From Myxococcales bacterium 68-20 (GTDB lineage Bacteria; Myxococcota_A; Polyangia; Polyangiales; Polyangiaceae): a stretch of DNA of 64,000 nucleotides. The stretch spans positions 314,023 to 378,022 of the forward strand of contig MKVQ01000004.1 of NCBI GenBank assembly GCA_001899635.1, in the 5' to 3' direction. The first letter of the stretch is position 1; each line of letters begins with the position of its first letter. Below, piece by piece: positions 1 through 15,393 of this stretch. Made by a program: the position numbers and the translations under genes. The notes under the pieces are model-generated. The model saw nothing but the letters and a program-made list of their open reading frames with translations. It searched no databases and was not told the origin of the DNA.

Positions 1-751
1 CGGCCGAGGCTCGCTGCTGGAGCGAACCCGCGATGCGCTCGAAAAAGGCCGCGAGCGTTCGCTCCATGTTGGCGTTGGTCCGCGCCTCGATCTCGGCGAC
101 GTGCTCGGCGACGGTGTCGCGCAGCACCTGACGGAGCGCCGAGAGGAGCGGGTTGCCGTCCCGCGACGTGACAGGAGCTACCGGTGCATTCGGACCAGCG
201 GCGTCACCGCCGCGAGCGCGAAGGGCGTCGACGACCGTGGAGAGGGAGCGCTCCGCCGTTTCGACGACACCATCGCCGCGCGAGGCCGAAGCGCTGACGT
301 GCGGCCATGCTTCGGCTTCGAGCGCGCGAACCACCTCGTCTGCAGAAAGAGCGTCGGGGAGGTCGGCCTTGTTGATCTGGACCACGACGGGGAGCTTGCG
401 CGTCGGATCGCTGGCAAGGATCTCGCGGACGGTCGCGAGGGACGCACGGTTTCGGTCGTGCGCGGCGGGGTCGGCGTCAGCGACGAAGACGACCCCGTCT
501 GCCTCGCGTAGGAGCTCCCGCACGCGCGCCTCGGACGGTACGCCTCGCGGCGTGACGAGCCTGACCGTGACCTCGAAGTCACCGAGCTCGGCTGGAGAAG
601 ACCTCGGTGTCCAGTCGCGCGCGAGCACGTCATCACCGCTGGAGCGAGGGCTGCCGAGACGCTCGAGGTTGGTCGCCTTTCCGGCCAGCTCGGGACCGAC
701 GTAGGCGATCGTCGCCTCGAGACGGCGTTCTCGAACGTTCAACTGGGCCAT
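1..751 (-). CDS. MglA-like Ras-type GTPase (partial, runs off left edge)
   Basis: The reading frame starts at ATG 751 on the minus strand and stays open to the window edge, so about 250 residues are visible and the C-terminus is missing. Near residues 20-30 it has a P-loop of the MglA kind (GPELAGKATNL; classical MglA has GKTTNL), and later the guanine-specificity motif NKAD. The stretch ADGVVFVADAD also matches MglA. The usual TVPGQ/DTxGQ G3 motif reads TPRGV, so hydrolysis may be altered. After the G domain comes a helical tail. MglA GTPases set polarity and motility with roadblock partners; a roadblock gene lies in the divergent operon at 3852. Family assignment is firm; function is inferred. 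Confidence 0.75.
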   Translation of the reverse strand, partial: MAQLNVRERRLEATIAYVGPELAGKATNLERLGSPRSSGDDVLARDWTPRSSPAELGDFEVTVRLVTPRGVPSEARVRELLREADGVVFVADADPAAHDRNRASLATVREILASDPTRKLPVVVQINKADLPDALSADEVVRALEAEAWPHVSASASRGDGVVETAERSLSTVVDALRARGGDAAGPNAPVAPVTSRDGNPLLSALRQVLRDTVAEHVAEIEARTNANMERTLAAFFERIAGSLQQRASA

Positions 752-1139
752 TGCTCTTCGCTCCGTCCACGCGTCAGTGCGGGCGCCACGGCAGCAGCAA
801 CGGCCATTCCAGCGTCCAGCAGCCCCGGTTTTCACGCGCCCGCGGAGCGCGGGTCCAGGAACTGGATGGGGATGTGTCCAAGATGTCCAGACACTGGACT
901 CCGACGGTCCAGACGGCGCCTCGGACAGACCGTAGCCGCTCGATACGGAGCGTCTTCGTGTGCGCTGGGAGCAACTCGTACATCGGTGGCATGGCCGCTG
1001 CAGACGTCATCGTGCGATGGCGACGGAGCGCGAGGCCTGCCGGTCGCGCGTGCCATTTCGTGTAGGGCGCGTGCGCTCTGGACGAACGAGGAGAACGGAG
1101 ATCGCTCGTGAGCGGCTCGTTTCACGTTTCGAGGTTCTC
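752..1139. promoter_or_regulatory. Divergent intergenic region with clustered TGTCCA/TGGAC motifs
   Basis: This gap separates the MglA-like gene from the DUF4388-like operon. Between 853 and 927 there are repeated TGTCC-type half sites in both orientations: GTCCA at 853, TGTCCA at 875, TGTCCA at 884 facing TGGACT at 895, GGTCC at 906 and GGACA at 923. The 884-900 pair forms a near-palindrome with a 5-bp spacer. The arrangement suggests operators for a regulator serving both directions. No credible gene was seen here. Confidence 0.4.
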
Positions 1140-2474
1140 ATGCTCGCCCCATCCATCGACCCGCTTCACGCAGTCACGAAGGAGAAGCGCCCTCTCGACG
1201 AGCTCGAGGGCGCGGTGCGCTCGCGGCGGTGCGGCGAGTTCATCTTCGCGACGAACAGTGTCGAGGTGCACGTCTTCTTGCAGCACGGTCGGCTCGCATG
1301 GGCGACCGACTCGTCGCACCCGTTCGAGTTCGCGCGATTCCTGAAGGCGCGTTGCGGGATCGACGACGAGGCGTTTCGAGAAGTGCTCGAAGAATGCCGC
1401 CGGTTGCGTACGCCGGTGGGGCAGACGCTCGTCGGCTGGGAGCTCGCGACGTGGGACGACGTTCGCGCGTCGCTCAGGAGTCAGATCGCGCTCGCCCTCC
1501 GCACGCTCGCTGCCCCCTCTGACGGAGCCACCATCTTCCTCACCCGCCAGCACTTCGCCGAGTACGACGAGAAGCTCACGTTCGAGCTCGGCGATCTGCT
1601 TCGGGAGGCCGACTCACCGCCGCCGGAGCCGCCGTCGAGCGTGTCGCTCCGGACCGCTCCAGCCGCGGACGCGCCGCCGGTCTCGGCGCTCCCGCTCTCG
1701 TCTCGAAGCTGGAGCGCGCAGAAGCTCCTCGAGCGGATTCGAGGTGCCTCGTGGGTGTCCGTCGCAGAGGGCCGAGCCGTCGACACGGCGACCGTGGGTC
1801 CGATGCCGCTGCTGCCCGCCGGCGTCGCGGATGCGACGCTCTACGATGGAGCCGACTTCGTCGCGCTGCGCTCCGCGGACGGATGCCTGATCGGCGCACG
1901 GCTCGCCCCGGCGAGTACCTCACCAGACGAGGCGGGCTCGGAGCTGTGGTGCATGCTCGGCAACTCGTCGGCCTTCCGGAAGGCGATCGCCGCGGTCGCT
2001 TCGCTGGGTCTCTCCCGGCAGAGTCGTCTCGACTGGCGCGTTGCTTCCGAGCCGATCGCGTGGCGCAAAGGCCATCTCGATGCGTCGTGGGCGAGCGAGG
2101 TCGAGCAGGTGTTCGCATACGGTGGAGAAGTCTACGCCGTCGCGCTGCTGTCGGCGGAAGGAGAGCTGGTCGCAGGCGTAGGCCGCTCGAGCCTCGACGC
2201 AGACACGTGCGCGGCTCTGGCCAGGCGGCGCGCAGGCGTCCTGTCGGTCGCCCTGGCCGAAGCGAACGGCGAGCTCGAGGCCCTCGGCTTCCGCTTCCGC
2301 ACGATGGTGACGGGCGAATCGTCGGTCTGGTGCTTCGGCGCCGAGCTCCACGGCCCGGGCCAGGCCGCGACGCTGTGGGTCATGGTCGGGCGAGAAGCCT
2401 CGCAGGGCGTCGGCTGGGCGTGTCTGACGGCGCTCTTGCGACACTGCCAGCAGCCTCCCGAGGTCAAGTCTTGA
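1140..2474 (+). CDS. DUF4388 (PATAN)-like protein with roadblock-like C-terminal regions
   Basis: A 444-residue protein. ATG 1140 was chosen because upstream codons in this frame read as arginine-rich noise. Residues ~10-130 resemble the DUF4388/PATAN domain (a phrase like FIFATNSVEVHVFLQHGRL, then a helical part), common in myxobacterial signalling proteins linked to GTPases and gliding. A proline/serine linker follows at ~150-190. The C-terminal 250 residues contain two alpha/beta units that look like diverged roadblock/LC7 or profilin-like folds; this is a weak impression. It overlaps the next gene by 4 bases, so the two are translationally coupled. Likely a scaffold in the operon's GTPase circuit; function inferred from neighbours. 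Confidence 0.55.
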   Translation: MLAPSIDPLHAVTKEKRPLDELEGAVRSRRCGEFIFATNSVEVHVFLQHGRLAWATDSSHPFEFARFLKARCGIDDEAFREVLEECRRLRTPVGQTLVGWELATWDDVRASLRSQIALALRTLAAPSDGATIFLTRQHFAEYDEKLTFELGDLLREADSPPPEPPSSVSLRTAPAADAPPVSALPLSSRSWSAQKLLERIRGASWVSVAEGRAVDTATVGPMPLLPAGVADATLYDGADFVALRSADGCLIGARLAPASTSPDEAGSELWCMLGNSSAFRKAIAAVASLGLSRQSRLDWRVASEPIAWRKGHLDASWASEVEQVFAYGGEVYAVALLSAEGELVAGVGRSSLDADTCAALARRRAGVLSVALAEANGELEALGFRFRTMVTGESSVWCFGAELHGPGQAATLWVMVGREASQGVGWACLTALLRHCQQPPEVKS

Positions 2475-3862
2475 GCTCGCTGGGCCCGCTGCTCGAGCTC
2501 CGCGGCTTCGGGGTCGGGTTTGGCGAGCGCATCGTCCTCGCGGACGTGACGCTCGACCTACCGCGGAGAGGGCTGACGACGATCGTCGGACCGGCGGCGG
2601 CCGGCAAATCCACTCTCCTTCGCACGATCGCCGGGCTGAACGATCCCCATCCTGCGCTGTCGACGTGGGGAACGTCGTCTTTCGGCGGTATCCCGCTCCA
2701 GGCGGCGCAGCCTGCCGTGGCGGGCGAGCTCCGTCGCGGCGTCGGGTTCGTGATGCAGCACGCGCGGTTCTTCCTCGATGACGTGCGGGAGAACCTCGTC
2801 TCGGGTCTCCCGAACCGCGCTGAATACGAGCCGGCGACGCAGACGAAGATGATCTCCGCGCTCCTCGAGGCACGGGGGCTTCACTCCCTCGTCGCTCGCC
2901 TCGACGAGGACGTGACGAGCCTCTCGACCCCGCTCCAGCGTCGCCTCGCGATCGTGCGAGCGCTCGCGGGCGACCCGCCGCTGCTGCTCGCAGACGAGCC
3001 GACGGCCGATCTCGACGAAAGCGACGCGATCGACGTGCTCGCGCTGCTCCGCATGGAAGCGAAGCTGCGATCCGTCGTGCTCGTCACGCACAACCAGAGG
3101 TTCGCGCGCGCGCTCGGGGGCAACGTGGTGCTCCTCGCGGCCGGCCGCGTGCAGGAGATCGCCCCTGCCGAGACGTTCTGGAGCGCGCCTTCGACGCCGA
3201 TGGGCCGGTCGTTCGTGGCCACGGGCGGCTGCCGCGAGCCGAGCCCCGATGCGCGCCCGGAGGATCTGGACTCATCGCCTCCTCCGCCGCCGCTCCCGGG
3301 CATCGCCCAAGCGCGGAACCGCTTCCTCGGACCGCGCGGCTTCTTCTGGCTGTCGCCCGGACGCCTCGGAGGCCTTCCACGGCCCGGCATCGTGGATGCG
3401 GTGGAGTCCGACCTCGACGGCCTCGTCCGCCTCGGCATCACGACGCTCGTCACGCTGGAGGAGTCGCCGACGGTCGATCCCGCGCTCCTCGACTTCCGGG
3501 ACATCGCATCGATTCACTTCCCCGTCGTCGACATGGACGTCCCCGATCTCGACGCGGCCGCGGCGTTCGCAACCGACCTCGACGAGCGCCTCGAGCGAGG
3601 CGAGGTCATCGCCGTGCATTGCCGTGCGGGGCTGGGTCGTACCGGCACGCTCCTCGCAGCGCAGCTCGTCTTCGACGGCGAGAACGCTCGCACGGCGATC
3701 GAACGCGTGCGCCGACTCAACCCGAAATGCATCCAGTCGAGCGTCCAGGTCGATTTCCTGGCGAGCTTCGAAGACTACCTGCGTGGACGTGATGCGACCG
3801 CCATCGCGCCCGCACCAATGAACAAGCGGTTGGAACGAGGAGAGAGCAACGATGTCGCTTGA
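2471..3862 (+). CDS. ABC-type ATPase fused to dual-specificity/tyrosine phosphatase domain
   Basis: A 463-residue two-domain protein starting at TTG 2471, overlapping the upstream stop. Residues 1-~235 are an ABC ATPase: Walker A GPAAAGKST (~40-48), Walker B LLLADEPTADLDE (~172-184) and H-loop VTHNQ (~206). The signature motif is degenerate (LSTPLQRR instead of LSGGQ). After a proline-rich linker, residues ~285-440 form a cysteine phosphatase with the P-loop HCRAGLGRTG (CX5R, Cys ~383) and an upstream loop ending VVDMDVPD that may supply the general acid. No membrane segment is present. The reading frame runs through both halves without a stop, so the fusion appears real. Its permease partner, if any, is not obvious; the membrane gene at 6059 is one candidate. 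Confidence 0.75.
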   Translation: MSSLGPLLELRGFGVGFGERIVLADVTLDLPRRGLTTIVGPAAAGKSTLLRTIAGLNDPHPALSTWGTSSFGGIPLQAAQPAVAGELRRGVGFVMQHARFFLDDVRENLVSGLPNRAEYEPATQTKMISALLEARGLHSLVARLDEDVTSLSTPLQRRLAIVRALAGDPPLLLADEPTADLDESDAIDVLALLRMEAKLRSVVLVTHNQRFARALGGNVVLLAAGRVQEIAPAETFWSAPSTPMGRSFVATGGCREPSPDARPEDLDSSPPPPPLPGIAQARNRFLGPRGFFWLSPGRLGGLPRPGIVDAVESDLDGLVRLGITTLVTLEESPTVDPALLDFRDIASIHFPVVDMDVPDLDAAAAFATDLDERLERGEVIAVHCRAGLGRTGTLLAAQLVFDGENARTAIERVRRLNPKCIQSSVQVDFLASFEDYLRGRDATAIAPAPMNKRLERGESNDVA

Positions 3863-4256
3863 TAGTGCACTGGTCAAGGCTCAGCAGTCCGTACCGGAGT
3901 GCGTGGCAGCCGGCTACGTCGACATGAGCACGGGCATGCTGCTCGGTGCGAAGACCGTGGACTCGCATCCCCAGGAGGTCCTCGACCTCGTCGCCGCCGC
4001 GACGGCGGACCTTTTCCAGGGCCAGAGCGTGAGCGCGATCGAGAAGCTGTTCCGCAAGTCTCGCGGGCAGACCGAGGACGGACACCACTACTTCAAGGAG
4101 ATCGTCGTCTTCAGCGACAACCTCCTTCACCTCTTCATGCGGTCGAAGAAGCACAGGGACCAGGCTGTCGTGTTCGTGTGCCGTGCGTCGGCCAACGTCG
4201 GCATGGTGCTCACCAAGGGCCGGCTCGCGCTCTCGGGCGTCGAATCCTCCATCTGA
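3852..4256 (+). CDS. Roadblock/LC7-domain protein (MglB-like)
   Basis: A 134-residue single-domain protein starting at ATG 3852 inside the end of the phosphatase gene, with a GAGGAGAG ribosome site upstream. It has the myxobacterial roadblock pattern: GYVDMSTGMLLG near residue 20, DSHPQEVLDLVAAATADLFQG at ~38-58, a GHHYFKEIVV strand, and a closing NVGMVLTKGRLAL segment. Roadblock proteins regulate Ras-like GTPases, with MglB acting on MglA as the model. Here the obvious partner is the GTPase at 1-751, transcribed divergently. Family assignment is confident; the pairing is inference from position. Confidence 0.8.
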   Translation: MSLDSALVKAQQSVPECVAAGYVDMSTGMLLGAKTVDSHPQEVLDLVAAATADLFQGQSVSAIEKLFRKSRGQTEDGHHYFKEIVVFSDNLLHLFMRSKKHRDQAVVFVCRASANVGMVLTKGRLALSGVESSI

Positions 4257-4275
4257 CGATCGCGGTGCAGCGTCT

Positions 4276-4300
4276 GCTGCCGCCCAGAGGAGGCGGCAGC
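4276..4300. other. Hairpin in operon gap
   Basis: A perfect 9-bp inverted repeat (GCTGCCGCC / GGCGGCAGC) with a 7-base loop lies 19 bases after the roadblock stop and before the ferredoxin-globin gene. No T-run follows, so it may be an attenuator or RNA-processing site rather than a true terminator. Confidence 0.4.
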
Positions 4301-4442
4301 GGACGTCGCGCGCACATCATGCAGCATGCGCTGGGGGGCGCAGAGCTCGCCCGCGCTTCCACCGGCCCTTCGGCTGCGGCCAGAACGGGAGGATCTCGAT
4401 CACGCTCGGTCATCGATACGTGAAGCCACGACGGAGTCGTTC

Positions 4443-6062
4443 ATGGTGAATATCCGCTTCGAAGGTCGAGAGTTCGATTGTCGTGAAGGCGAGACCGTCC
4501 TCGATGCGCTCCTGCGTCAGGGCCAGAACCCGCCATTTTCTTGTCGAAACGGCTCGTGTCTCGTCTGCCTCCGCAGGTGCGTGCGCGGCGAGCCGACCGA
4601 GGCTTCGCAGCGAGCGCTGCGTCCGAGCCTGCGCCGTGCCGGCTACTTTCTCCCGTGCAAGTGCAAGCCGCAGGGCTCGATGGAGATCGAGCCGCCGCGT
4701 GCGGCCGACCTCTTCAGCCGAGCCGTCGTCGCGGAGAAGGAGATCGTCGGTGACGTCTGCGTGCTCCGACTCGAGTCGGCCACGTCGCTCTACTATCACG
4801 CCGGCCAGTTCCTGAATCTCCGTCGCGAAGACGGTCTGATGCGCTCGTACTCGCTCGCGAGCCTCCCGACCGAGGACTATCTCCTCGAGGTCCACGTCAA
4901 GCGCATGCCCGGCGGCGCGATGAGCGAGTGGATCTTCGACACGCTCACGGTAGGCGACGAGCTCGACTACCAAGGACCGAACGGACGCGTCTATTACGTG
5001 TCGGGGTCGCGAATGGAGGATCAGGACCTCCTCCTCGTCGGCAACGGGACCGGAGCCGCTCCCCTCCTCGGGATCGTCCGCGACGCGATAGACGTCGGGC
5101 ATCGCGGCCGCATCCGACTCTTCTTCGGCAGCCGCACCCGCGACGGGCTCTACCTCCACGACCGGTTCACCGCGCTCGCAAACGCGCATCCGAGCATCGA
5201 GTACGTCCCTTGTCTCTCGGGTGAGCACGTGCCGGAAGGCTTCGCGCGGGGTCGCGTCCACGAGATCGCCCTCGCCCGCTGCCCCGAGCTCCGCGGTCAG
5301 CGCATCTTCGTGGCCGGCCATCCGGCGATGGTGGCGGCAGTCGAGGCGGCGGCCCTTACCGCAGGCCTCGATCCATCGGAGGTGCATGCCGACCCGTACG
5401 AGGTACGGAGCGCGCCCGAGAAGCCGACCCCCATCGCGGAGGGAGCCACCACACGGCGGGCGGAGATCGGCACGGCGGATCCGGAGATGTGGCAAGCCCT
5501 CCGTGAGGGCGAGCTCCTTCGAGAGATCCTCCACGACTTCTACACCGACGTCTTCGAGGACAGCATCCTCTCGCCCTACTTCCACAACGTGACGAAGGAG
5601 CGCGTCGTCGGACAGGTGTTCTCGTTCATGCGTGACGTGTTCAAGGGCGAGCGCAGCTACTTCGGCATGCGCCCGCGGACCGCCCACCACTGGATGGTCA
5701 TCTCCGACGCCATCTTCGATCATCGCGAGGCGATGATGGTGAGGACACTCCGGAAGCACGGGCTCCCCGAGCACCTCGTCTCGCGCTGGCGCAAATTCGA
5801 AGAGGGCTTCCGCGGGGACATCGTCAAGCCGACACCGTGGGCGCTCGTCATCGACGGGGTCGAGATGCCGCTCGACGGTTTCGGCGAGGAGGAGCTCACC
5901 GTCGGCACGATGTGCGACGGTTGCCAGCGCGCAGTCGAGGTCGGCGAGCGCGTGCGCTACCATCTGCGGCTCGGACTGACCTACTGCGCGACATGTGCAT
6001 TCTCCGAGCGGCGCCAGAGCTCGGCGCCGACGGCATCGCCGACGGGGGGCGTACGCGCGTGA
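4443..6062 (+). CDS. 2Fe-2S ferredoxin / FAD-NAD(P)H reductase / truncated globin / zinc-ribbon fusion
   Basis: A 539-residue multidomain redox protein. ATG 4443 begins directly at the ferredoxin domain. Residues ~1-90 are a plant-type 2Fe-2S ferredoxin with Cys in SCRNGSCLVC and a later PCKC. Residues ~95-330 are a ferredoxin-NADP reductase-like module with the FAD motif RSYSLAS (~134) and the nucleotide site GNGTGAAPLL (~200). Residues ~345-460 match a truncated globin; the likely proximal heme ligand is the His of AHHWMVISDAIFDH (~414). The last 60 residues carry two CxxC pairs (CDGC, CATC) of a zinc ribbon. Such chains can move electrons from NAD(P)H to a heme for NO or O2 chemistry. The 4-base overlap with the next gene marks an operon. 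Confidence 0.8.
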   Translation: MVNIRFEGREFDCREGETVLDALLRQGQNPPFSCRNGSCLVCLRRCVRGEPTEASQRALRPSLRRAGYFLPCKCKPQGSMEIEPPRAADLFSRAVVAEKEIVGDVCVLRLESATSLYYHAGQFLNLRREDGLMRSYSLASLPTEDYLLEVHVKRMPGGAMSEWIFDTLTVGDELDYQGPNGRVYYVSGSRMEDQDLLLVGNGTGAAPLLGIVRDAIDVGHRGRIRLFFGSRTRDGLYLHDRFTALANAHPSIEYVPCLSGEHVPEGFARGRVHEIALARCPELRGQRIFVAGHPAMVAAVEAAALTAGLDPSEVHADPYEVRSAPEKPTPIAEGATTRRAEIGTADPEMWQALREGELLREILHDFYTDVFEDSILSPYFHNVTKERVVGQVFSFMRDVFKGERSYFGMRPRTAHHWMVISDAIFDHREAMMVRTLRKHGLPEHLVSRWRKFEEGFRGDIVKPTPWALVIDGVEMPLDGFGEEELTVGTMCDGCQRAVEVGERVRYHLRLGLTYCATCAFSERRQSSAPTASPTGGVRA

Positions 6063-6643
6063 GCCCCCTGCGTACGAGGCGCGAGCTCGCGATCGCGAGC
6101 TGGGCGATCGGCGGCGTGGCGCTCACCTTCGTCGAGGCGATCGTGCGTATGGCCGCACGCGCCGTCCATTTGCTGCGCGGGGAGATGGACGCCCCGCGAT
6201 GGCTCTGTCTCATCATGGTGGTCGCGCTCTTCTGTTACGGCGAGGGCTACCGCGCGCTGCAAAGGCGCTTCGTCCCGCACGTCGTCGAACGCGCCGCTGA
6301 ATTCAGTGCCAGCGCGTCGGGCTGTCTCACGATCCTCTCGGCGCCGCTGCATGCGCTGTCACTCATGGGAGCCAGTCGCCGCGAGCTGGCGCGCGCGTGG
6401 CTCGGCGTGGGGCTCATCGTGGGAGCCGTCCTCGTGGTCCGCGCGCTTCCGCCCGTCTGGCGAGGACTGGTCGATGCGGGCGTGGCCGCTGCGCTCTCGT
6501 GGGGCCTCGTCGCGCTCGTCACCACGTTCATCCGCGCGATCGTCGCGCCGCGCTGGTCCAAGCCGAGCGACGGCGCTCCACTGCGCGTTGAAGGGCCGCG
6601 TGGGCAACACGATGTGGCCTCCATGGGAACGCCGCTCGCCTGA
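6059..6643 (+). CDS. Small multi-pass inner membrane protein
   Basis: A 194-residue protein starting at GTG 6059, overlapping the preceding stop (GTGA). It shows about four hydrophobic spans: one near residues 12-32, one at ~48-62 (WLCLIMVVALFCYGEGY), and two after residue 115 (LGVGLIVGAVLVVRALPPVW and VAAALSWGLVALVTTFIRAIV). No family motif was recognised. It closes the operon with the redox-globin fusion, so it may anchor that protein or serve as the membrane partner of the ABC ATPase; both are inference. Confidence 0.55.
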   Translation: MSPLRTRRELAIASWAIGGVALTFVEAIVRMAARAVHLLRGEMDAPRWLCLIMVVALFCYGEGYRALQRRFVPHVVERAAEFSASASGCLTILSAPLHALSLMGASRRELARAWLGVGLIVGAVLVVRALPPVWRGLVDAGVAAALSWGLVALVTTFIRAIVAPRWSKPSDGAPLRVEGPRGQHDVASMGTPLA

Positions 6644-6806
6644 CCTGCTACGGCCGCCGGCGCCGCTCGAGTCCGAGCCCGATCACGCGCTCGACCATCG
6701 CATCCACGACATCCACACGCGCTCGAACCGGATGCCGAGCGATCCGAACGAGTGCGCGATCCGTCACCTCTCACCCCCCACGGACATCCCGCGAGGATTC
6801 CCAGGC

Positions 6807-7645
6807 TCATCGGCTGAAACGAACACGCACCGTCACCTCGGCGGCGACGCTGCGTCCTGACTTGTCGAGCGCGGGAGTGAAGCTCGATGCGGTCAGGCAG
6901 CGTCGCGCGGCAGCGCCGAAGCCTTGGCCGGACGGGCTCTCGCTCGCGACCGACGCGCGCGCGACCTTCCCCGACGGGAGCACGACGAGGGAGACGGCGG
7001 CGCTCCCGGAGTCGGCCGTGGCTTCGTTCGGGTAGAACCCTCCGCAGGGATCGTCGCCTTGCAGGCGCGCGGGTCGACTGAGCGACGCTGCTGGAACGAT
7101 GCCGTCGCCGTTGCCCGTCCCCGTCGCGACCGGTGGGGCCGGAGGAGCGACCACACGCGGACGTCCTCCTGTGCTCTGCTCCGCGGTTCCTCCGCGCGCG
7201 ACCACGCCGCTTCCGTACGAGGTACCCATGGGATCGGTGACGAAGTCGACGAGATCTTCGCTCCCTTTGGCCGCCGGATCCGCGGCGACGACCGCTCCCG
7301 CGCGCGCGGCGGCCGGTGGTGACGGCGCGGCGGCGGCGGCCGCGGCGGGAGCGGCGCGCGGAGGGGGCGCCTTCGCGGGCGCTTCCGTCGGAGCTGGCGG
7401 CTCTTCGTTCGGTGGCGGTGGCGGAGGTGGAGGTGGAGGTGCGGGAGGCGGACGCCAACCGCTCCGCAGAGCGCCACCCAGCCGGCAGGGCGATCGTTTT
7501 TCAGCCCGAACACCGGCGCGAGCCCGATCGGTGCTGCCGTCGGCGTCGCGCGCGCCTCCTCGTCGGCAGGCGCGGAGGAGCTCGTCCGGGCGACGCCCGG
7601 CGCGCTCTTCGGGACGCCGCGGTCACGGCGGTCGGTCGACATCAT
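6807..7645 (-). CDS. tonB: TonB-like energy transducer with apparent frameshift
   Basis: Start ATG 7645 overlaps the exbD stop as ATGA. The first ~65 codons read a TonB-like N-terminus (short hydrophobic stretch RPAGWVALCGAVG), but that frame then becomes a His/Arg-rich shadow. The continuation, with a run of about eleven prolines, an Ala/Pro linker and a TonB C-terminal domain (GFYPNEATADSGSAAVSLVVL to EVTVRVRFSR), lies in another frame. The switch falls at roughly 7440-7475, in a (GGT/GGA)n-rich tract. No usable start exists for the downstream frame alone. Either a base is missing or added here, or the gene is broken or recoded. TonB passes proton-motive energy from ExbBD to outer-membrane receptors; a receptor gene lies divergently at 9025. 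Confidence 0.65.
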
Positions 7646-8076
7646 CGAGGGCTGTTCTCCCGCGGACGTGCGCTCGCCGGATCGGACGCGAAGGCGATCT
7701 TCACGATCCCACCCGAGCGGAGAGCGTCGACGGCGCCCAATACCGCTTCATGACGAGCAGCTCCGGCGGCCTGGACGACCGTTCGCGTCTCGGGGTTTTC
7801 ACGAAGTGCGGCGGACGCGAGCGGACCGAGCTCGGTCTCGGTGACGGGACGACCGTTGGCGAAGAGGTGTCCATCCGCGTCGACGGAGACGGTGAAGATG
7901 GTCTGAGTCGCGTCCGCGGTCGCCGCCTTCGGCAGGTCCATCGGGATGCCCTGCTGAGTGATCAGCTTGGCCGTGACCATGAAGATGATGAGGAGTACGA
8001 GCGTGATGTCGACGAGCGGCGTGACGTTGATCGCGACGATCTCGCCGTCATCCGTCGTTTCGGTAGCACCGGCCAT
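7642..8076 (-). CDS. exbD: ExbD/TolR-family biopolymer transport protein
   Basis: A 144-residue protein with the ExbD layout: a short cytoplasmic N-terminus, one membrane span after INVTPLVDITLVLLIIFMVTA (residues ~17-36, containing the conserved Asp of the proton path), and a periplasmic domain ending near residue 130. It starts two bases after the exbB stop and overlaps the tonB start, so the three form one operon. With ExbB it makes the proton-driven motor for TonB. Confidence 0.92.
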   Translation of the reverse strand: MAGATETTDDGEIVAINVTPLVDITLVLLIIFMVTAKLITQQGIPMDLPKAATADATQTIFTVSVDADGHLFANGRPVTETELGPLASAALRENPETRTVVQAAGAARHEAVLGAVDALRSGGIVKIAFASDPASARPRENSPR

Positions 8077-8077
8077 T

Positions 8078-8782
8078 TCATGCCTCCGCGAGCATCGAGG
8101 TCGAAAGGGACGGACGAGTAGTAGTCGCGACCAGCGGGCGCTGAGCCTCGAGCCACGACATGAGCACGTGGGTCAACGTCTGCGTGTTCGAGACGACCCC
8201 GCGGATGCGCCGCTGGAAATAGTTGTAGACAGCAACTGACGGGATCGCGACCGCGAGGCCGATCGCCGTGGCGACGAGTGCTTCGGCGATGCTCGACATC
8301 ACCCCGGTGGGCGCTGCCCCGGAGGCGCCGTTCGCCTCGCCGAGCTGGTCGAACGCCATGATGATGCCGACCACCGTGCCGAACAGCCCGACGAACGGCG
8401 CGTTGTTTCCGAGCGTGCCGAGGAAGCCCAGGCCACGTTCGAGCTTCTTGCGTTGCACCGCGGTTGCTGCGGCCATCGCCTCGGAGGCGGCGCGGGCTCC
8501 GCGATCGGCCTTGGCTAGGCCGACGAGGACGACCTTCGCCTCCGCCGACGGCGACCGGCTCATCTTGGCTTGCGCGCCGGCGATGTCGCCGGTCTCGAGC
8601 GCCGTCTCGAGCTCACGTGCGAGTCGCTCGAGATCGTCCGAGGCGCGGACGAAGAACCAGGCGCGTTCGAGCGAGATGGCGAGCGCGATGATGCTGAGGC
8701 CGATCATCAGGAACATCACCGGCGATGTTCCCATAGCGAGCATGACCGCCTTTCCCTGAGCCACGATGTTGGTGTGTTGCAT
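8078..8782 (-). CDS. exbB: ExbB/TolQ/MotA-family proton channel protein
   Basis: A 234-residue membrane protein with three spans: residues ~15-40 (MLAMGTSPVMFLMIGLSIIA region), ~110-135 (LGTLGNNAPFVGLFGTVVGI, the family hallmark) and ~155-180 (ALVATAIGLAVAIPSVAVYNYF). This is the ExbB/TolQ pore subunit. It is first in the exbB-exbD-tonB operon and diverges from the TonB-dependent receptor. The shared promoter region carries the GCGGACA array at 8867-8923. Confidence 0.92.
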   Translation of the reverse strand: MQHTNIVAQGKAVMLAMGTSPVMFLMIGLSIIALAISLERAWFFVRASDDLERLARELETALETGDIAGAQAKMSRSPSAEAKVVLVGLAKADRGARAASEAMAAATAVQRKKLERGLGFLGTLGNNAPFVGLFGTVVGIIMAFDQLGEANGASGAAPTGVMSSIAEALVATAIGLAVAIPSVAVYNYFQRRIRGVVSNTQTLTHVLMSWLEAQRPLVATTTRPSLSTSMLAEA

Positions 8783-8866
8783 TCTGTTCTCCTGGCGGCC
8801 CTACGGAGCAGGGAGCGTGCCACGGGGAAAGCGCGCAGAACGCGGGCGAACCAGCTCGTCGCGTGG

Positions 8867-8923
8867 TGTCCGCGAGTGTCCGCGGACAGCGGGCCGGACA
8901 CTTCGGCGGACAGCTCGCGGACA
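8867..8923. promoter_or_regulatory. Operator array of TGTCCGC/GCGGACA motifs
   Basis: Five TGTCC/GGACA half sites lie within 57 bases between exbB and the receptor gene: TGTCCGC at 8867, the perfect palindrome TGTCCGCGGACA at 8877-8888, GGACA at 8896, GCGGACA at 8906 and GCGGACA at 8917. The last two are 11 bp apart, one helical turn. This is the layout expected for a dimeric repressor or activator controlling both directions. Confidence 0.5.
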
Positions 8924-9024
8924 GGCGCTCGATCCACAGAGCACGCTTTTTCCGGCGGCTCACTCGTGGCACGACCGCTGCCTGGGCGGGCCGGCACATG
9001 TCGCCCTCACCCCCGTATCCGGAA

Positions 9025-11649
9025 ATGCGTCGCTCGTATGCGACCTCTCGACGATCGGCGTGGCTTACGCCTCTCCGGAGGCGCCGCCTTTCGGTCTGCG
9101 TCCTCGCTCTCGTTCTGGCGCTCCCGACCTCGGCGCTCGCGCAGCAAGCGGCGGTCGCGCCTCCGGAGCTCGTCACCAACGCCACGCCCGAGTATCCAGA
9201 GTCGAAGAAGGGGTCCGGCGAGGCGGCCACCGTCGTACTCACGCTGACGATCGACAGCGAGGGGCGAGTCACGAATGCGGCCGTCCAGACGAGCGGCGGC
9301 GAAGCCTTCGACGAGGCGGCGGTCGTCGCGGCGAGGCGCCTCGAGTTCAAACCGGCGCAGAAGGAAGGGCGCGCGGTCGCGTCGCGGATCCCGTTCCGCT
9401 TCGACTTCGCCGTCGGCGAAGAGCCGCCGGCCGACACGCGGCCAGGCGAGATCAGCGGCTCGGTGCGTACTCCGACCGACGCCCCAGTCGCCAACGCGCG
9501 CGTGAGCGTCACGTCGGGCTCGGGCACGCGGACCGACGTCGTCACCGATGAGAAGGGCGAGTTCCGAGCGCCGAACCTCGTGCCCGGGAGCTACACCGTG
9601 CACGTCGAGGCGGAGGGCTTCATGCCGACCGACATGCGCGAGGAGGTCGCCGCAGGAGAAGCGACGGCGGTCATCTATCGCCCCGGTCTCGCGAAGACGC
9701 CGCCGCAGGAGCCGGCCGAGGCGATGGAGATCTCCGTGCGGGGGGAGCGGCCGCCACGTGAAGTCACGCGCCGCGTCCTCGAACAGCGCGAGGTCCAGAA
9801 GATCCCCGGCACCAACGGCGATGCGCTCCGCGCGATCGAGAACATGCCCGGCGTCGCGCGACCGCCCGGAAGCACGGGCGCCCTCATCGTGCGAGGCTCC
9901 GCTCCTCAAGACACGGGCATCTTCGTCGACGGCACGCAGATCCCGATCGCCTATCACTTCGGCGGTGTCACCTCGGTGATCCCCTCCGAGATGCTCGCCC
10001 GGATCGACTTCCTGCCCGGCAACTTCGGACCGGAATACGGACGCGCGATGGGCGGCGTCGTCGACATCGGCATTCGCTCGCCGGCGAAAGACAAGCTGCA
10101 CGGCGTCTTCAAGGTGGACCTGCTCGATGCGCGGCTCTCGGTCGAAGGCCCGCTCGGCAAGACCACGCGCTTCCTCGCCGGCGCGCGGCGCTCGTGGGTC
10201 GACGCCTGGATTGGTAGCGCGCTCGAGGCGGGAGGCTCGACGACGATCACCGCGGCGCCGGTCTACTACGACTATCAAGCGGGGATCGAGCAAGACATCG
10301 GCTCGCACACGACCGCACGCCTCTTCCTCCTCGGCTCGGACGATCGGCTGAAGATCGTCCTCGACGCTCCCGGGAGCAGCGACCCGGTCGGTGGCGCGAT
10401 CCGCAATCACACGCGCTTCTATCGACTGCAGGCCCGCACCGAGACTCGCCTCTCCGAGAACGTGCGGTGGATGAACATGGTGTCGTACGGAATGGACCGG
10501 CTCGAGCTCGGGGTCGGCGAGATGTTCAGCCTCGACGTGCGCACGAACCCGCTCACGTTCCGCTCGGACATCCGCGCGAAGTTGAGCGACATGTTCACGC
10601 TCGTGGGAGGCATGGACGCGGTGTGGACTCAGGCCGACGTCCGCGTGCTCGCCGCTCCGATCTCCGACCAAGAGGAGGGTAGCGGCCCGTTCTTCGCGCG
10701 CCCGCGTCGCCTGCAGACGCTGCAGGGGGACATCTTCCAGCCGGCCGCCTACGCGATGCTCGAGGTCGCTCCGGTGAAGAGCCTGAAGCTCCTTCCGAGC
10801 GTGCGCGCCGACTACTCGAGTGCCATCCGCGATTGGCGCGTCGCGCCGCGCTTCGCCGCTCGCTACGACGTCGTGCCTGGCTACCCGCGCACGACACTCA
10901 AGGGAGGACTCGGCCTCTTCAACCAGCCGCCGCAGCCCGAAGAGAGCCTCCGGCCGTTCGGGACTCCGAACTTGCGACAGAACCAGGCCACGCACGCGTC
11001 CGCCGGCTTCGAGCAGCAGCTGAGCCAGCAGGTCGAGCTGTCGGTCGAGGGCTTCTTCAAGAAGCTCGACTACCTCGTCGACCAGAGCCCGGACGCGACG
11101 GGCTCGGCCGGCGGCTCGCGCTATGCGAACACCGGCAGCGGGCGCGTCGCCGGCGGTGAGCTCCTGCTCCGTTACAAGCCGGACACGCGCTTCTTCGGCT
11201 GGGTCGCGTACACGCTCTCGCGAAGCGAGCGTCGGGCGGACGACAGCGAGGCCTTCCGCACCTTCGCCTATGACCAGACGCACATCCTCACTGCTCTCGC
11301 GAGCTACAAGCTCGGTCGCGGCTGGGAGATCGGCGGGCGCTTTCGCTACGTGACCGGTAGTCCATACACGCCGACCACATCCGCCCTCTACGACGCGGAC
11401 GCCGGCGCCTACTCACCCATCTACGGCGCGCTCTACTCGGACCGCAATGCCGCCTTTCATCGACTCGACGTTCGCGTCGACAAGACTTGGGAGCTCGGCG
11501 TCCTCAAGCTGACCGCCTACCTCGATCTTCAGAACGCGTACTTCCGGCAGAACCCGGAAGGGCGCAGCTACAACTTCAACTATTCGCGCTCGGCGGTGGT
11601 GAGCGGACTGCCGTTCCTCCCCACGCTCGGCCTTCGAGGTGAACTGTGA
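9025..11649 (+). CDS. TonB-dependent outer-membrane receptor with built-in TonB C-terminal domain
   Basis: About 874 residues. ATG 9025 gives a signal peptide ending ALPTSALAQQ; ATG 8998 is an alternative. Residues ~45-125 are a TonB_C-like domain (PEYPESKK to FRFDF), unusual on a receptor. Residues ~140-215 resemble a carboxypeptidase regulatory-like (CNA-type) fold. The plug follows (RAIENMPGVARP, LIVRGSAPQDTGIFVDG), then a 22-strand-type barrel ending with an aromatic strand. Myxobacteria often carry such fusions. The ligand is unknown. The stop overlaps the start of the lipoprotein gene, so the two probably act together, fed by ExbBD-TonB encoded divergently. Confidence 0.85.
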   Translation: MRRSYATSRRSAWLTPLRRRRLSVCVLALVLALPTSALAQQAAVAPPELVTNATPEYPESKKGSGEAATVVLTLTIDSEGRVTNAAVQTSGGEAFDEAAVVAARRLEFKPAQKEGRAVASRIPFRFDFAVGEEPPADTRPGEISGSVRTPTDAPVANARVSVTSGSGTRTDVVTDEKGEFRAPNLVPGSYTVHVEAEGFMPTDMREEVAAGEATAVIYRPGLAKTPPQEPAEAMEISVRGERPPREVTRRVLEQREVQKIPGTNGDALRAIENMPGVARPPGSTGALIVRGSAPQDTGIFVDGTQIPIAYHFGGVTSVIPSEMLARIDFLPGNFGPEYGRAMGGVVDIGIRSPAKDKLHGVFKVDLLDARLSVEGPLGKTTRFLAGARRSWVDAWIGSALEAGGSTTITAAPVYYDYQAGIEQDIGSHTTARLFLLGSDDRLKIVLDAPGSSDPVGGAIRNHTRFYRLQARTETRLSENVRWMNMVSYGMDRLELGVGEMFSLDVRTNPLTFRSDIRAKLSDMFTLVGGMDAVWTQADVRVLAAPISDQEEGSGPFFARPRRLQTLQGDIFQPAAYAMLEVAPVKSLKLLPSVRADYSSAIRDWRVAPRFAARYDVVPGYPRTTLKGGLGLFNQPPQPEESLRPFGTPNLRQNQATHASAGFEQQLSQQVELSVEGFFKKLDYLVDQSPDATGSAGGSRYANTGSGRVAGGELLLRYKPDTRFFGWVAYTLSRSERRADDSEAFRTFAYDQTHILTALASYKLGRGWEIGGRFRYVTGSPYTPTTSALYDADAGAYSPIYGALYSDRNAAFHRLDVRVDKTWELGVLKLTAYLDLQNAYFRQNPEGRSYNFNYSRSAVVSGLPFLPTLGLRGEL

Positions 11650-12602: not shown

Positions 12603-13978
12603 AGGAAAGAGCGAGCGGCGTGTCGACTGTGCTCATCGTCGACGACCAGGAGGCGGTGCGCGAGGCGCTCGAGCTCTTGCTCGAGGTCCACGGCCTGCGC
12701 GCCGAGAGCGTCGCCGGCGCCGAGGAGGCGCTCGCGCGCATCCGGCAGGGCGGGGTCGCGGCCGTCGTGCAGGACATGAATTTCAGTCGCGACACGACAT
12801 CGGGCGAGGAGGGGATCGAGCTCTTCCGCCGCATCCGGGCGATCCTCCCGACGATGCCGGTCCTCCTCATGACGGCGTGGACCTCGCTCGAGACGGCCGT
12901 CGCCCTCGTTCGCGAGGGCGCGGTCGACTACGTGCAGAAGCCGTGGAACGACGACAAGCTCGTCGCTTCGCTGAAGAACCTCGTCCGCCTGCGCGAGCTC
13001 CAGCTCGAGAACGAGCGTCTGCGCGCGGCCGCGCAACTCGATCGTGAGACCCTCGCCAGCGCCCATGACCTTCGCGGTCTCGTGTACGTGAGCTCGGTGA
13101 TGCACCGCACGGTCGAGCTCGCGCTCCGCGTGGCGGCGTCCGATGCGCCCATCCTCGTTCTCGGCCCGAACGGCTCAGGCAAGGAGAAGCTCGCCGAGAT
13201 CATCGCGTACAGCTCGCGGCGGAAGGACCGCCCGTTCGTCCGCGTCAACGCGGGGGCGATCCCGGACGCGCTCCTCGAGAGCGAGCTGTTCGGCGTCGAG
13301 GCCGGCGCCTTCACCGGCGCGACCAAGTCTCGCGGAGGGCATTTCGAGGCCGCCCACGGCGGCACGCTCTTCCTCGACGAGATCGGCAACCTCTCGCTCG
13401 CAGGACAGCAGAAGCTCCTGCGCGTTCTCCAGACCGGCGAGCTCCAGCGTCTCGGCAGCTCGCAGCTCCGGCGGGTCGACGTGCGCGTCATCAGCGCGAC
13501 GAACGAGGACCTCCGCGCGGCGATCGCGAACAAGACGTTTCGCGAGGACCTCTATTTCCGACTCAACGTGGTGGAGCTGACGCTACCGCGCCTGGCCGAG
13601 CGATCGGAGGACATCTTGCCGCTGGCCGAGGCCTTCCTCGCGCGCACGGCGAGCCCACACGAGCTCTCCGACGCCGCACGACGCGCACTGGCGAAGCACG
13701 ACTACCCGGGCAACGTTCGCGAGCTCGAGAACCGGATCACGCGCGCCACGCTCGTATGTCATGGCGGCGTCATTCAGCCCGCGGACCTCGGCCTCGAGAG
13801 CGCCGACGCCGGGCGGCCGCGAGAGATCACGCTGGAGCAGGACGCGATCGCGCGTGCCCTCGCCGAGCACGACGGGAACATCTCGCGGGCGGCGGCGCAG
13901 CTCGGCGTCAGCCGCCAGGCGCTGTATCGCCGGATGGACAAGCTCGAGATGTCGAGCGGACGGAAATCCGGGTCGTGA
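12599..13978 (+). CDS. Sigma54-dependent response regulator (NtrC/PilR family)
   Basis: About 459 residues, with GTG 12599 overlapping the upstream stop. Receiver domain at ~10-125 (acidic pair VDD, phospho-acceptor Asp ~59 in VVQDMNF, later Lys in VQKPW). AAA+ domain with Walker A GPNGSGKE, an intact GAFTGA loop (VEAGAFTGATKSRG) and Walker B TLFLDEIG. C-terminal Fis-type helix-turn-helix (NISRAAAQLGVSRQALYRRM). It activates sigma54 promoters when phosphorylated. The partner kinase overlaps by 4 bases. Position before the Flp/Tad genes suggests pilus control, but coupling to the receptor operon is equally possible. Confidence 0.9.
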   Translation: MKERASGVSTVLIVDDQEAVREALELLLEVHGLRAESVAGAEEALARIRQGGVAAVVQDMNFSRDTTSGEEGIELFRRIRAILPTMPVLLMTAWTSLETAVALVREGAVDYVQKPWNDDKLVASLKNLVRLRELQLENERLRAAAQLDRETLASAHDLRGLVYVSSVMHRTVELALRVAASDAPILVLGPNGSGKEKLAEIIAYSSRRKDRPFVRVNAGAIPDALLESELFGVEAGAFTGATKSRGGHFEAAHGGTLFLDEIGNLSLAGQQKLLRVLQTGELQRLGSSQLRRVDVRVISATNEDLRAAIANKTFREDLYFRLNVVELTLPRLAERSEDILPLAEAFLARTASPHELSDAARRALAKHDYPGNVRELENRITRATLVCHGGVIQPADLGLESADAGRPREITLEQDAIARALAEHDGNISRAAAQLGVSRQALYRRMDKLEMSSGRKSGS

Positions 13979-15393
13979 GCACGAGGGAGGGCCGCGCCCG
14001 GCTGATCCTGCTCGTCGCCGCTGTGCTGGCGGTGTTCCTCGTCACCAGCGCCGTCCGTGCGCTCGACATCGGCGGTCTTGCCTCGTCCGCGCTCGTTGCG
14101 CTCGTCCTCGGCGCGCTCTTCTTCGTCGCGGCGACGGTGTCGAGTCATGCGGAGGAGAAGCGGGCACGTGCATTCGCCGCGCGCCTCCGCGCCCGCGACC
14201 TGAGTGCGGTGTCGGCGTCGGACAACCCCACGCTCGATCCGATCCACCACGAGTTGCTCGACATCGGCGGCGAGCTCCGACGTAGGGAACGAGCGCTCGC
14301 AGAAGGCGAGGCGCTGCTCCTCGCCGTCGTCGAGATGACGCCGGCCGCGCTGCTGCTCATCGGCTCGAATGGCGCCGTGCTCGCGACGAACGAAGCGTCT
14401 CGTGCTCTCTTCTTCGGCGGAGAAGACGTCGTGGGTCGAGGAATGCTCGAGCTCCTCAGGCGAGCACCGCCCATCCTCAGGCGCGTGCTCGCGGCGACGG
14501 GTGACGAGCTCCTCGTCGTCGAGGACGCCGACGGCGCGACGTACACGCGCCACTTGATGAAGCGCTATTTCCAGCTCGGCGGCGAGGACGTCGTCCTCGT
14601 CATGGTCAGCGATCTGTCGCGCGAGATCGCGCGACAGGAGGTGGACGTCTATAGGCGTGTCATCCGCGTTTTGTCCCACGAGGTGAACAACTCGCTCGCG
14701 CCGATCTCGAGCTTGATGCACTCCGCCCGACTCCTCTTGAAAGACGACGATGGGCAGGAGCCCCTTCAGGCGGATGCGCAGGCGATCACGAACGGTCGCG
14801 CGGACGAGCGCCTCCGAAAGGTCTTCGACACCGTGGCCGAGCGCGCGGAGCACCTGCGTCGCTTCCTCGATGGCTATTCCGAGCTGGCGCGGCTGCCGCT
14901 GCCGAAGAAGGTGCCCGTCGACTGGGCTTCCTTCCTCGAGCGCGTTGGCGCGCTCTATCCGGGGATCGCGCTCGGCCTCCCCGCGGTAGACGCGGGCAAC
15001 GGGACCGAGGCCGGCTGGTTCGATCGGGCGCAGCTCGAGCAGGTCATCGTCAACCTGATCAAGAACGCCGAGGAGGCCGGCAGCGCCCGAGGCGACATCG
15101 TCGTCGACGTCGAAGCGAGCGCCGATCGCGGCTCGCGTGTCGTCGTGCGCGACCGCGGTCGCGGCATGTCCCCCGACGTGATGAAGAACGCCCTCGTGCC
15201 GCTCTTCTCGACCAAGGAGAACGGCAGCGGTCTCGGGCTGGCGCTTTGCCGCGAGATCGTCGAGGCGCACGGAGGAACGCTCCGGCTGATGGCGCGCGAG
15301 GGCGGCGGGCTCGAGGTCGTGATCCGCTTGCCGCCACGCTCACGAGCGAAGGTCCGGAGCTTCTCCGGCCCGATCACGGCGATGCGAATCTGA
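13975..15393 (+). CDS. Membrane sensor histidine kinase (NtrB/NtrY-like)
   Basis: A 472-residue kinase starting at GTG 13975, overlapping the regulator stop. Two membrane spans lie at ~8-28 and ~36-56 with almost no periplasmic loop, so the signal is probably sensed in or below the membrane. A HAMP-like/PAS region follows at ~90-210. The H-box is RVLSHEVNNSLAPISS. The ATP-binding domain has N (VNLIKNAEEA), G1 (VRDRGRGM), F (PLFSTK) and G2 (GSGLGLALC) boxes. The HEVNNSLAP form is typical of NtrY-like kinases that pair with NtrC regulators. Confidence 0.9.
   Translation: MSTREGRARLILLVAAVLAVFLVTSAVRALDIGGLASSALVALVLGALFFVAATVSSHAEEKRARAFAARLRARDLSAVSASDNPTLDPIHHELLDIGGELRRRERALAEGEALLLAVVEMTPAALLLIGSNGAVLATNEASRALFFGGEDVVGRGMLELLRRAPPILRRVLAATGDELLVVEDADGATYTRHLMKRYFQLGGEDVVLVMVSDLSREIARQEVDVYRRVIRVLSHEVNNSLAPISSLMHSARLLLKDDDGQEPLQADAQAITNGRADERLRKVFDTVAERAEHLRRFLDGYSELARLPLPKKVPVDWASFLERVGALYPGIALGLPAVDAGNGTEAGWFDRAQLEQVIVNLIKNAEEAGSARGDIVVDVEASADRGSRVVVRDRGRGMSPDVMKNALVPLFSTKENGSGLGLALCREIVEAHGGTLRLMAREGGGLEVVIRLPPRSRAKVRSFSGPITAMRI

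Follow-up and report, generated by a model that had tools for sequence, protein, structure and literature searches.

An ABC ATPase-phosphatase gene paired with a non-canonical roadblock gene, and its recurrent GTPase and globin partners, in Myxococcales bacterium 68-20 and other bacteria

Genes at the locus

The window analysed here is the whole 64,000 bp stretch G000:C4:314023-378022 of the 11.9 Mb genome of Myxococcales bacterium 68-20. Its first 6,643 positions carry six genes, among them those for a putative GTPase (G1), an ATP-binding cassette (ABC) type ATPase fused to a dual-specificity/protein tyrosine phosphatase (DSP/PTP; the fusion is called ABC-PTP hereafter), a non-canonical roadblock protein of 134 aa (RB1), and a ferredoxin/reductase/globin fusion. 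An earlier note on this DNA had grouped the six together as a possible GTPase signalling operon in which four genes have overlapping starts. All six are present about where they had been placed, but the GTPase gene lies on the minus strand and diverges from the others across 388 bp (752-1139, by the gene coordinates), and is not part of an operon here. The five plus-strand genes form one cluster. Three of its four junctions overlap (2474/2471, 3862/3852 and 6062/6059), while RB1 and the globin fusion are parted by 186 bp (4257-4442).

The ABC-PTP gene (2471-3862, plus strand) starts with TTG and overlaps the stop of the preceding DUF4388-like gene by 4 bp. Pfam found ABC_tran (E = 2.6e-20), Tc-R-P (2.5e-17) and PTP-SAK (8.5e-17) in its product, which confirms the ATPase/phosphatase fusion proposed earlier. 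Walker A and B motifs and a CX5R signature are all present (GPAAAGKS, DEPT and HCRAGLGR). Among 70 related open reading frames (ORFs), Walker A was found in 68, a strict DEP motif in 47, and CX5R in 69.

RB1 (3852-4256, plus strand) had been called a roadblock protein from its sequence, for which we obtained no support from family or sequence searches: there was no family match in Pfam, NCBIfam or PDB sequences, and Pfam lists only Skp1, with E = 0.18. RB1 is thus outside Pfam Robl_LC7, and its assignment rests on fold rather than on a sequence model. The structure predicted together with 39 relatives (predicted local distance difference test, pLDDT, 88.9; predicted template modelling score, pTM, 0.81) has the alpha-beta-beta-alpha-beta-beta-beta-alpha topology of a roadblock, with the elements H3-13, E17-24, E29-35, H40-56, H58-70, E83-87, E91-97, E104-111 and H116-132. 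The best Foldseek match was a roadblock (E = 3.5e-7), and the 50 matches listed bear roadblock, MglB (Thermus, Myxococcus), MglA-MglB, MglC, Ragulator/LAMTOR and MP1-p14 titles. Three further chains among them are titled only as a human heteropentameric or heteroheptameric complex, which we take to be Ragulator. Ribosomal protein S5, the best PDB sequence match (E = 0.0048), was regarded as a chance match because the predicted fold is that of a roadblock. RB1 is therefore a roadblock by predicted fold and non-canonical by sequence. It shares 59-84% identity with its closer relatives (two alignments).

Recurrence of the ABC-PTP/RB1 pair and its partners

An RB1 alignment was scanned against 84,980 species genomes and gave 455 relatives, of which the best 80 loci were kept; the search profile was mainly myxobacterial, so that distant forms are under-sampled among these 80. 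Their titles name Myxococcota, Vicinamibacteria, beta- and gammaproteobacteria and Planctomycetota, among the last a complete genome, that of Planctomycetales bacterium 10988; the taxon labels of metagenome-assembled genomes (MAGs) may be wrong. Proteobacterial isolates with RB1 include Comamonas testosteroni, which has the ABC-PTP/RB1 pair only, Pseudomonas indica, Xanthomonas massiliensis, and Thiohalophilus, which also has the globin.

Neighbours were counted with profiles in the 54 of the 80 loci that have at least 6 kb on either side, and again after these well-flanked loci had been collapsed into 34 groups by merging RB1 sequences at least 80% identical. At a distance of up to 6 kb from RB1, and on its strand, ABC-PTP was found in 54 of 54 loci (all 34 groups); it lies within 500 bp in 49 (31 groups). 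A GTPase gene was present under the same 6 kb limit in 25 loci (14 groups), another roadblock gene, canonical or extra, in 23 (14 groups), and a globin in 19 (11 groups), or in 22 loci and 14 groups when either strand within 10 kb is counted. The globin was accompanied by ferredoxin and ferredoxin-NADP reductase (FNR) parts in 15 loci (7 groups), and a DUF4388-type gene was found in 9 (8 groups). These profiles were built partly from the counted loci; tblastn with the window proteins alone is the cleaner check, and it gave an ABC-PTP match in 73 of the 80 RB1 loci and a match to the globin part in 30.

RB1 and the globin were also compared within the order, in 183 genomes of 83 genera. RB1 matched in 27 genomes, and the 23 with at least 59% identity were counted, leaving out four whose best match was below that value. 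The fusion query matched in 50 genomes; the match included the globin part in 17 and was confined to the reductase part in the other 33, which were left out. By genome, 14 have both RB1 and the globin, 9 RB1 only, 3 the globin only, and 157 neither. By genus the figures are 12, 4, 2 and 65 (Fisher p = 1.5e-9, with no phylogenetic correction). In six of the 14 genomes with both, RB1 and the globin share a contig and are at most 10 kb apart. Near the globin gene, two of the globin-only genomes (G048 and G051) show a match to the ABC-PTP profile; G123, the third, has a distant roadblock match only. In a sample of 274 genomes from the class, RB1 was found in five and a close globin in three, all three with RB1 and already chosen beforehand.

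The set of GTPase, roadblocks, phosphatase and globin fusion thus recurs in unrelated genomes, also outside the myxobacteria. The objection that the arrangement might be unique to this genome falls, and because of this recurrence the set goes beyond chance and is real and conserved. The exact gene order ending in the membrane protein was seen only in the window locus. Since ABC-PTP accompanies RB1 in 54 of 54 loci, as against 25 for the GTPase and 19 for the globin, ABC-PTP and RB1 make up the core, to which the GTPase and the globin are recurrently but optionally added. This pair, which does not include the GTPase, is the most constant one.

In some beta- and gammaproteobacteria, the GTPase, ABC-PTP, RB1, a canonical roadblock and the globin fusion apparently lie in one operon. 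A Thiobacillaceae MAG (L122) has, on one strand, a 374 aa protein, a small GTPase (ATP_bind_1, E = 3.5e-7), ABC-PTP, RB1, a canonical roadblock (Robl_LC7, 5.1e-15), a cysteine-rich protein (weak CxxCxxCC, 0.0066) and the globin fusion, and Tad genes come next on the other strand. The 374 aa protein had no Pfam or NCBIfam match; a receiver-like start was noticed by eye only.

Our genome itself has a second cluster on contig C43, with DUF4388-like, ABC-PTP, RB1, second roadblock, kinase-like/metallophosphatase, GTPase and membrane protein genes. There, L005:11329-12939 (plus strand) encodes a kinase-like domain (by eye) and a calcineurin-like phosphoesterase (Metallophos_2, E = 3.9e-15) in the slot that the globin fusion holds in the window. 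The C43 GTPase is split over the overlapping frames L005:12848-13171 and 13168-14475 (plus strand), by an assembly error or a real frameshift.

The globin fusion

The fusion gene (4443-6062, plus strand) encodes 539 aa with the Pfam domains Fer2, FAD_binding_6, NAD_binding_1 and Bac_globin, so the ferredoxin/reductase/globin make-up described before stands. The protein consists of a 2Fe-2S ferredoxin, an FNR-type reductase, a globin and a C-terminal CxxC...CxxC segment. The reductase part is closest, among PDB sequences, to the P450 reductase 5ogx and to BenC-type reductases. A profile of the globin domain matched group-1 truncated globins (best E = 6.8e-14, to 3aq5). Tyr27, His75 and the four Cys of the CxxC...CxxC are invariant in 24 of 24 aligned globin sequences, and in our reading of the alignment Tyr27 would be B10 and His75 the proximal histidine F8. 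Sequence similarity and the conserved Tyr and His place the domain among the group-1 truncated haemoglobins. The protein is not a flavohaemoglobin, in which an N-terminal 3/3 globin precedes FNR; here the ferredoxin and reductase domains come first (Fer2-FAD-NAD-globin), and a truncated globin follows them.

Globins without a reductase in the same ORF were found beside RB1, for example at L074, L084, L087 and L121. The genome of the Thiobacillaceae MAG has a second copy of the fusion (L167), whose globin part is 85% identical to that of L122. Opposite it lies an Rrf2-family gene (L167:3158-3649, plus strand), whose best NCBIfam match is NsrR (119 bits, below the model cutoff of 182 bits). Such a regulator was seen by eye at one of 11 separate globin loci, and that one alone was scanned.

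The GTPases and the DUF4388-like protein

G1 (2-751, minus strand) was rightly described as MglA-like in so far as Pfam finds Arf in it (E = 2.4e-8), but its P-loop is degenerate (GPELAGKAT) and PGQ is absent, with NKAD kept, so that it is not an intact MglA-type GTPase. The window holds its N-terminal 250 of 477 aa; the remainder, with a long C-terminal tail, is at L004:15341-16774 (minus strand). Next after it on the same strand, outside the window, is a second GTPase gene, G2 (L004:13656-15239, minus), whose motifs GIACAGKTT, SVPGQ and NKQD are those of an intact MglA-type protein (Pfam Arf, E = 4.9e-7). Its tail looked kinase-like by eye. Among orthologs of G2, GK[ST] is kept in 10 of 10 and PGQ in 9 of 10. 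Nine orthologs of G1 have GK[ST] in one, PGQ in none and NKxD in eight (counts that omit L062, whose start is missing, and L175, an ordinary GTPase within a long protein). Because G1 has lost GK[ST] and PGQ while G2 keeps them, G1 is probably a degenerate partner.

Two GTPases and a DUF4388-type gene are present at 9 of 11 G1-type loci examined, the window included, and several have a weak roadblock match. This arrangement also occurs without a true RB1 or ABC-PTP (e.g. L169, L170 and L171), and another locus of our own genome (L174) has a further GTPase pair with divergent roadblock-like and DUF4388-like genes.

The protein encoded at 1140-2474 (plus strand) had been named DUF4388-like. Pfam supports this weakly (E = 0.0036; 17.8 bits, below the cutoff of 25 bits) for the N-terminal domain, and to it we add a roadblock-like C-terminal region. 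The model is poor (pLDDT 65.4, pTM 0.42); in this low-confidence structure, residues 315-436 run helix-strand-strand-helix-three strands-helix, the same element order as in RB1. The 50 Foldseek matches listed all have roadblock-type titles, with E from 1.2e-3 to 8.9e-3 and none at or below 0.001. At L084:10408-11292, a DUF4388-type domain and an RB1-profile match (47 bits) are found in a single ORF. The possibility that RomX, the guanine nucleotide exchange factor of Myxococcus xanthus, has a DUF4388 domain was also considered. A full-text search gave no paper containing both terms, one RomX paper was without DUF4388, and the idea was not used.

Past G2 on the minus strand (L004:9155-13611), genes for a prepilin peptidase, RcpC/CpaB, a secretin, TadB and TadC were recognised by eye. 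Co-occurrence with motility genes had been suggested as a check, and Tad-type genes do lie beside the window locus. They are present, however, in just 4 of the 54 well-flanked RB1 loci (2 of 34 groups), and none of the 8 loci built around G1 relatives has them. Tad genes were seen beside the module in L106, L122, L128 and L138. The link to secretion or motility by a Tad pilus is therefore a weak lead.

Intergenic regions and neighbouring genes

A strong RNA hairpin (4270-4306, plus strand) lies just 3′ of the RB1 stop, in the gap before the globin fusion. Folding of 4250-4330 gave -44 kcal/mol and a z value of -3.12; there is no U run, and the terminator scan did not call it. It is possibly a 3′ stabiliser or a partial terminator. 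Hairpins of other sequence were seen at the same place after RB1 in four of six relatives' gaps that were folded (L096, L074, L122 and L106; without shuffle control). Between 700 and 6900, a scan for sigma-70-like promoters gave no match, and the terminator scan gave a single terminator-like site, on the minus strand, a yield that does not exceed that of shuffled sequences. Nothing was found in an Rfam search of 1-8000.

The last gene of the cluster (6059-6643, plus strand) encodes a small membrane protein with three to four hydrophobic segments by hydropathy. At the thresholds applied, neither Pfam nor NCBIfam assigned it to a family; it is 41% identical over 148 aa (E = 1e-25) to its counterpart in the C43 cluster. 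Beside the cluster, at 6807-11649 of the window, TonB-like, ExbD-like and ExbB/TolQ-like genes (minus strand) and a TonB-dependent receptor gene (plus strand) were noticed by eye.

Interpretation

Sequence, fold and gene order establish the domain make-up of these proteins, the fold of RB1, the conservation of the catalytic motifs, the recurrent clustering, and the co-occurrence of RB1 with the globin. The explanation that we favour, although we consider it as apt to fail as to hold, is that the genes here are one variant of a conserved signalling module made up of several proteins, in which a core of ABC-PTP and RB1 has GTPase and haem parts plugged into it. As to complex formation, signal direction, ligand and output, we would propose the following. 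The soluble ABC-PTP and RB1 probably form a single complex, which two recurrent parts may join. One would be an MglA-family GTPase system, represented here by the degenerate G1 and the intact G2, a pair transcribed divergently from the cluster. The other would be a self-sufficient haem protein, composed of the ferredoxin, the NAD(P)H-dependent FNR, the group-1 truncated globin and a metal knuckle. The DUF4388/roadblock protein, standing between both halves, could couple the core to the GTPases. The haem protein would draw electrons from NAD(P)H and bind or turn over O2 or nitric oxide (NO). The roadblock platform would be set by the ligand or the redox state of the haem protein, or by the removal of NO, and would in turn shift the nucleotide state of the GTPases and the ATP-dependent output of the phosphatase. 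Such a module might serve to sense gas or redox state, to remove NO or to control pili. A bolder version, which we hold to be doubtful, is that the ABC ATPase and RB1 jointly gate the phosphatase, that the globin is the NO, O2 or redox input, and that MglA-type GTPases, in myxobacteria a pair of one GTPase and one degenerate GTPase with roadblock partners, resembling Rag GTPases and Ragulator, carry the state to the cell surface, the whole being a widespread machine that has not been described.

Several observations weigh against a module of this kind. Of the 54 well-flanked loci, 29 lack a same-strand GTPase gene within 6 kb and 32 lack a globin anywhere in the locus. A search for a globin of this subfamily (E 1e-15) in 20 RB1 genomes left 13 without one, and in 8 of the 14 genomes of the order that have both, the globin is on another contig than RB1. 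The sole GTPase of the window, G1, looks inactive from its motifs; the gap with the hairpin between RB1 and the globin fusion may split the transcripts; and the profiles used for counting partly derive from the same loci. The separation on different contigs agrees with an unlikely but reasonable alternative, that the fusion acts simply as an NO dioxygenase, like flavohaemoglobin a detoxification enzyme. It would travel with ABC-PTP and RB1 because both help when NO is present or oxygen is low, and no signal would pass between them. A group-1 truncated globin with an invariant Tyr and His and its own ferredoxin-FNR electron source is what such an enzyme would have, and a truncated haemoglobin with an FNR-type reductase is a combination known from NO dioxygenases (PMC3820574, as far as described there). 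The second copy at L167, opposite a gene whose best match, below cutoff, is the NO sensor NsrR, points the same way; such a regulator, however, was seen at just the one separate globin locus. The invariant C-terminal CxxC...CxxC and the reductase-free globins beside RB1 also fit a plain enzyme poorly. The unfused globins and the metal knuckle lean towards signalling, although not decisively, and the two views are compatible provided that the signal is set by NO removal.

It is also conceivable, though we think it quite unlikely, that ABC-PTP and RB1 are a self-contained, ATP-driven phosphatase device, while the GTPases, together with the DUF4388 protein, form a system of their own, built on two GTPases, whose adjacency here is incidental. 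The near-universal pairing of ABC-PTP with RB1, compared with a GTPase in fewer than half of the loci, speaks for such a division, as do the G1-G2-DUF4388 loci without either core gene. Yet two kinds of GTPase join the pair in 14 of 34 groups, a small MglA-type in proteobacteria and a kinase-tailed MglA-type in myxobacteria, and a canonical or extra roadblock gene is often present as well. That all these genes are chance neighbours with no functional link is hardly credible. Myxobacterial genomes are large with a loose gene order, and the exact order with the terminal membrane protein occurs only here, but the constancy of ABC-PTP in every locus and group, the overlapping frames, and the co-occurrence of RB1 and the globin at the genus level all disagree with it; for the ABC-PTP/RB1 pair, chance is already disfavoured.

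To our knowledge, the input is known for few of the GTPase-roadblock systems of prokaryotes. The recurrent joining of such proteins to a reductase-fed globin and ABC-PTP makes this question testable, as the set occurs in bacteria that can be cultured, in C. testosteroni as the ABC-PTP/RB1 core alone and in Thiohalophilus with a globin. The analysis further brings out ABC-PTP and RB1 as a constant pair, which has hitherto been annotated piecemeal, and likewise the pair of GTPase and degenerate GTPase with roadblock partners.

Comparison with known systems

The earlier note knew of no described system with this gene set, and our full-text literature searches, whose coverage excludes most subscription journals, likewise listed none. 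The nearest relatives each share a part of it. The MglA/MglB/MglC/RomR polarity module of M. xanthus (PMC10329633) also combines an MglA-family GTPase with several roadblocks, and the model of RB1 resembles MglB and MglC. In the portion of that paper available to us, however, the module is described without ABC-PTP or a globin; moreover, RB1 had no sequence match to those roadblocks in the PDB search, and the GTPases here are long-tailed, with one degenerate. What defines the MglA/MglB module is a roadblock protein that acts as GTPase-activating protein of the GTPase and governs polarity or motility.

In the Group 3 MglA neighbourhood of beta- and gammaproteobacteria, a receiver/winged-helix protein, MglA and one or two MglB lie in a row (PMC4316618, relevant section). 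L122 and its relatives have a small MglA-type GTPase and a canonical roadblock in the same row, with a conserved protein of unknown function whose likeness to the receiver/winged-helix protein is by eye only; they would extend that neighbourhood by ABC-PTP, RB1 and the globin. These three additions go unmentioned in the relevant section of that paper, and the words globin and phosphatase were not found anywhere in the paper. The arrangement in the window differs, with other GTPase types.

Actinobacterial conservons are GTPase and roadblock operons, some of which have a fifth, accessory haem gene for a cytochrome P450 of the CvnE type (PMC13343842, in the part available). They resemble the present set in joining a GTPase, a roadblock and a haem protein, but as described there they have no ABC-PTP, and the haem protein here is a globin that shares one polypeptide with its reductase. 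A conservon joins a histidine kinase, a roadblock, a CvnC-type protein and a GTPase in a single operon; a Pfam scan of the six genes found no histidine kinase or CvnC-type domain, so the locus is not a conservon.

A globin is likewise coupled to a roadblock in HGbRL of Methylacidiphilum infernorum, in which a globin is fused to Roadblock/LC7 and for which gas-to-roadblock signalling was proposed (PMC4476040, in the passages available). HGbRL is, however, a single protein whose flavohaemoglobin-like globin has no reductase, and no ABC-PTP is described with it in those passages; here the proteins are separate and the globin is a group-1 truncated one. Flavohaemoglobin and the truncated haemoglobin/ferredoxin-reductase NO dioxygenases combine a globin with an FNR-type reductase, as the fusion does (PMC3820574, same part). 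Compared with those enzymes as described there, the fusion has the order Fdx-FNR-globin with a C-terminal truncated 2/2 globin, a metal knuckle, and ABC-PTP and RB1 as partners. The ABC-PTP/RB1 pair is absent from MglA/MglB/MglC, Group 3 MglA, the conservons and HGbRL as far as the available parts of these sources describe them, and the new feature of the present set among prokaryotic GTPase-roadblock systems is its ABC-PTP/RB1 core.

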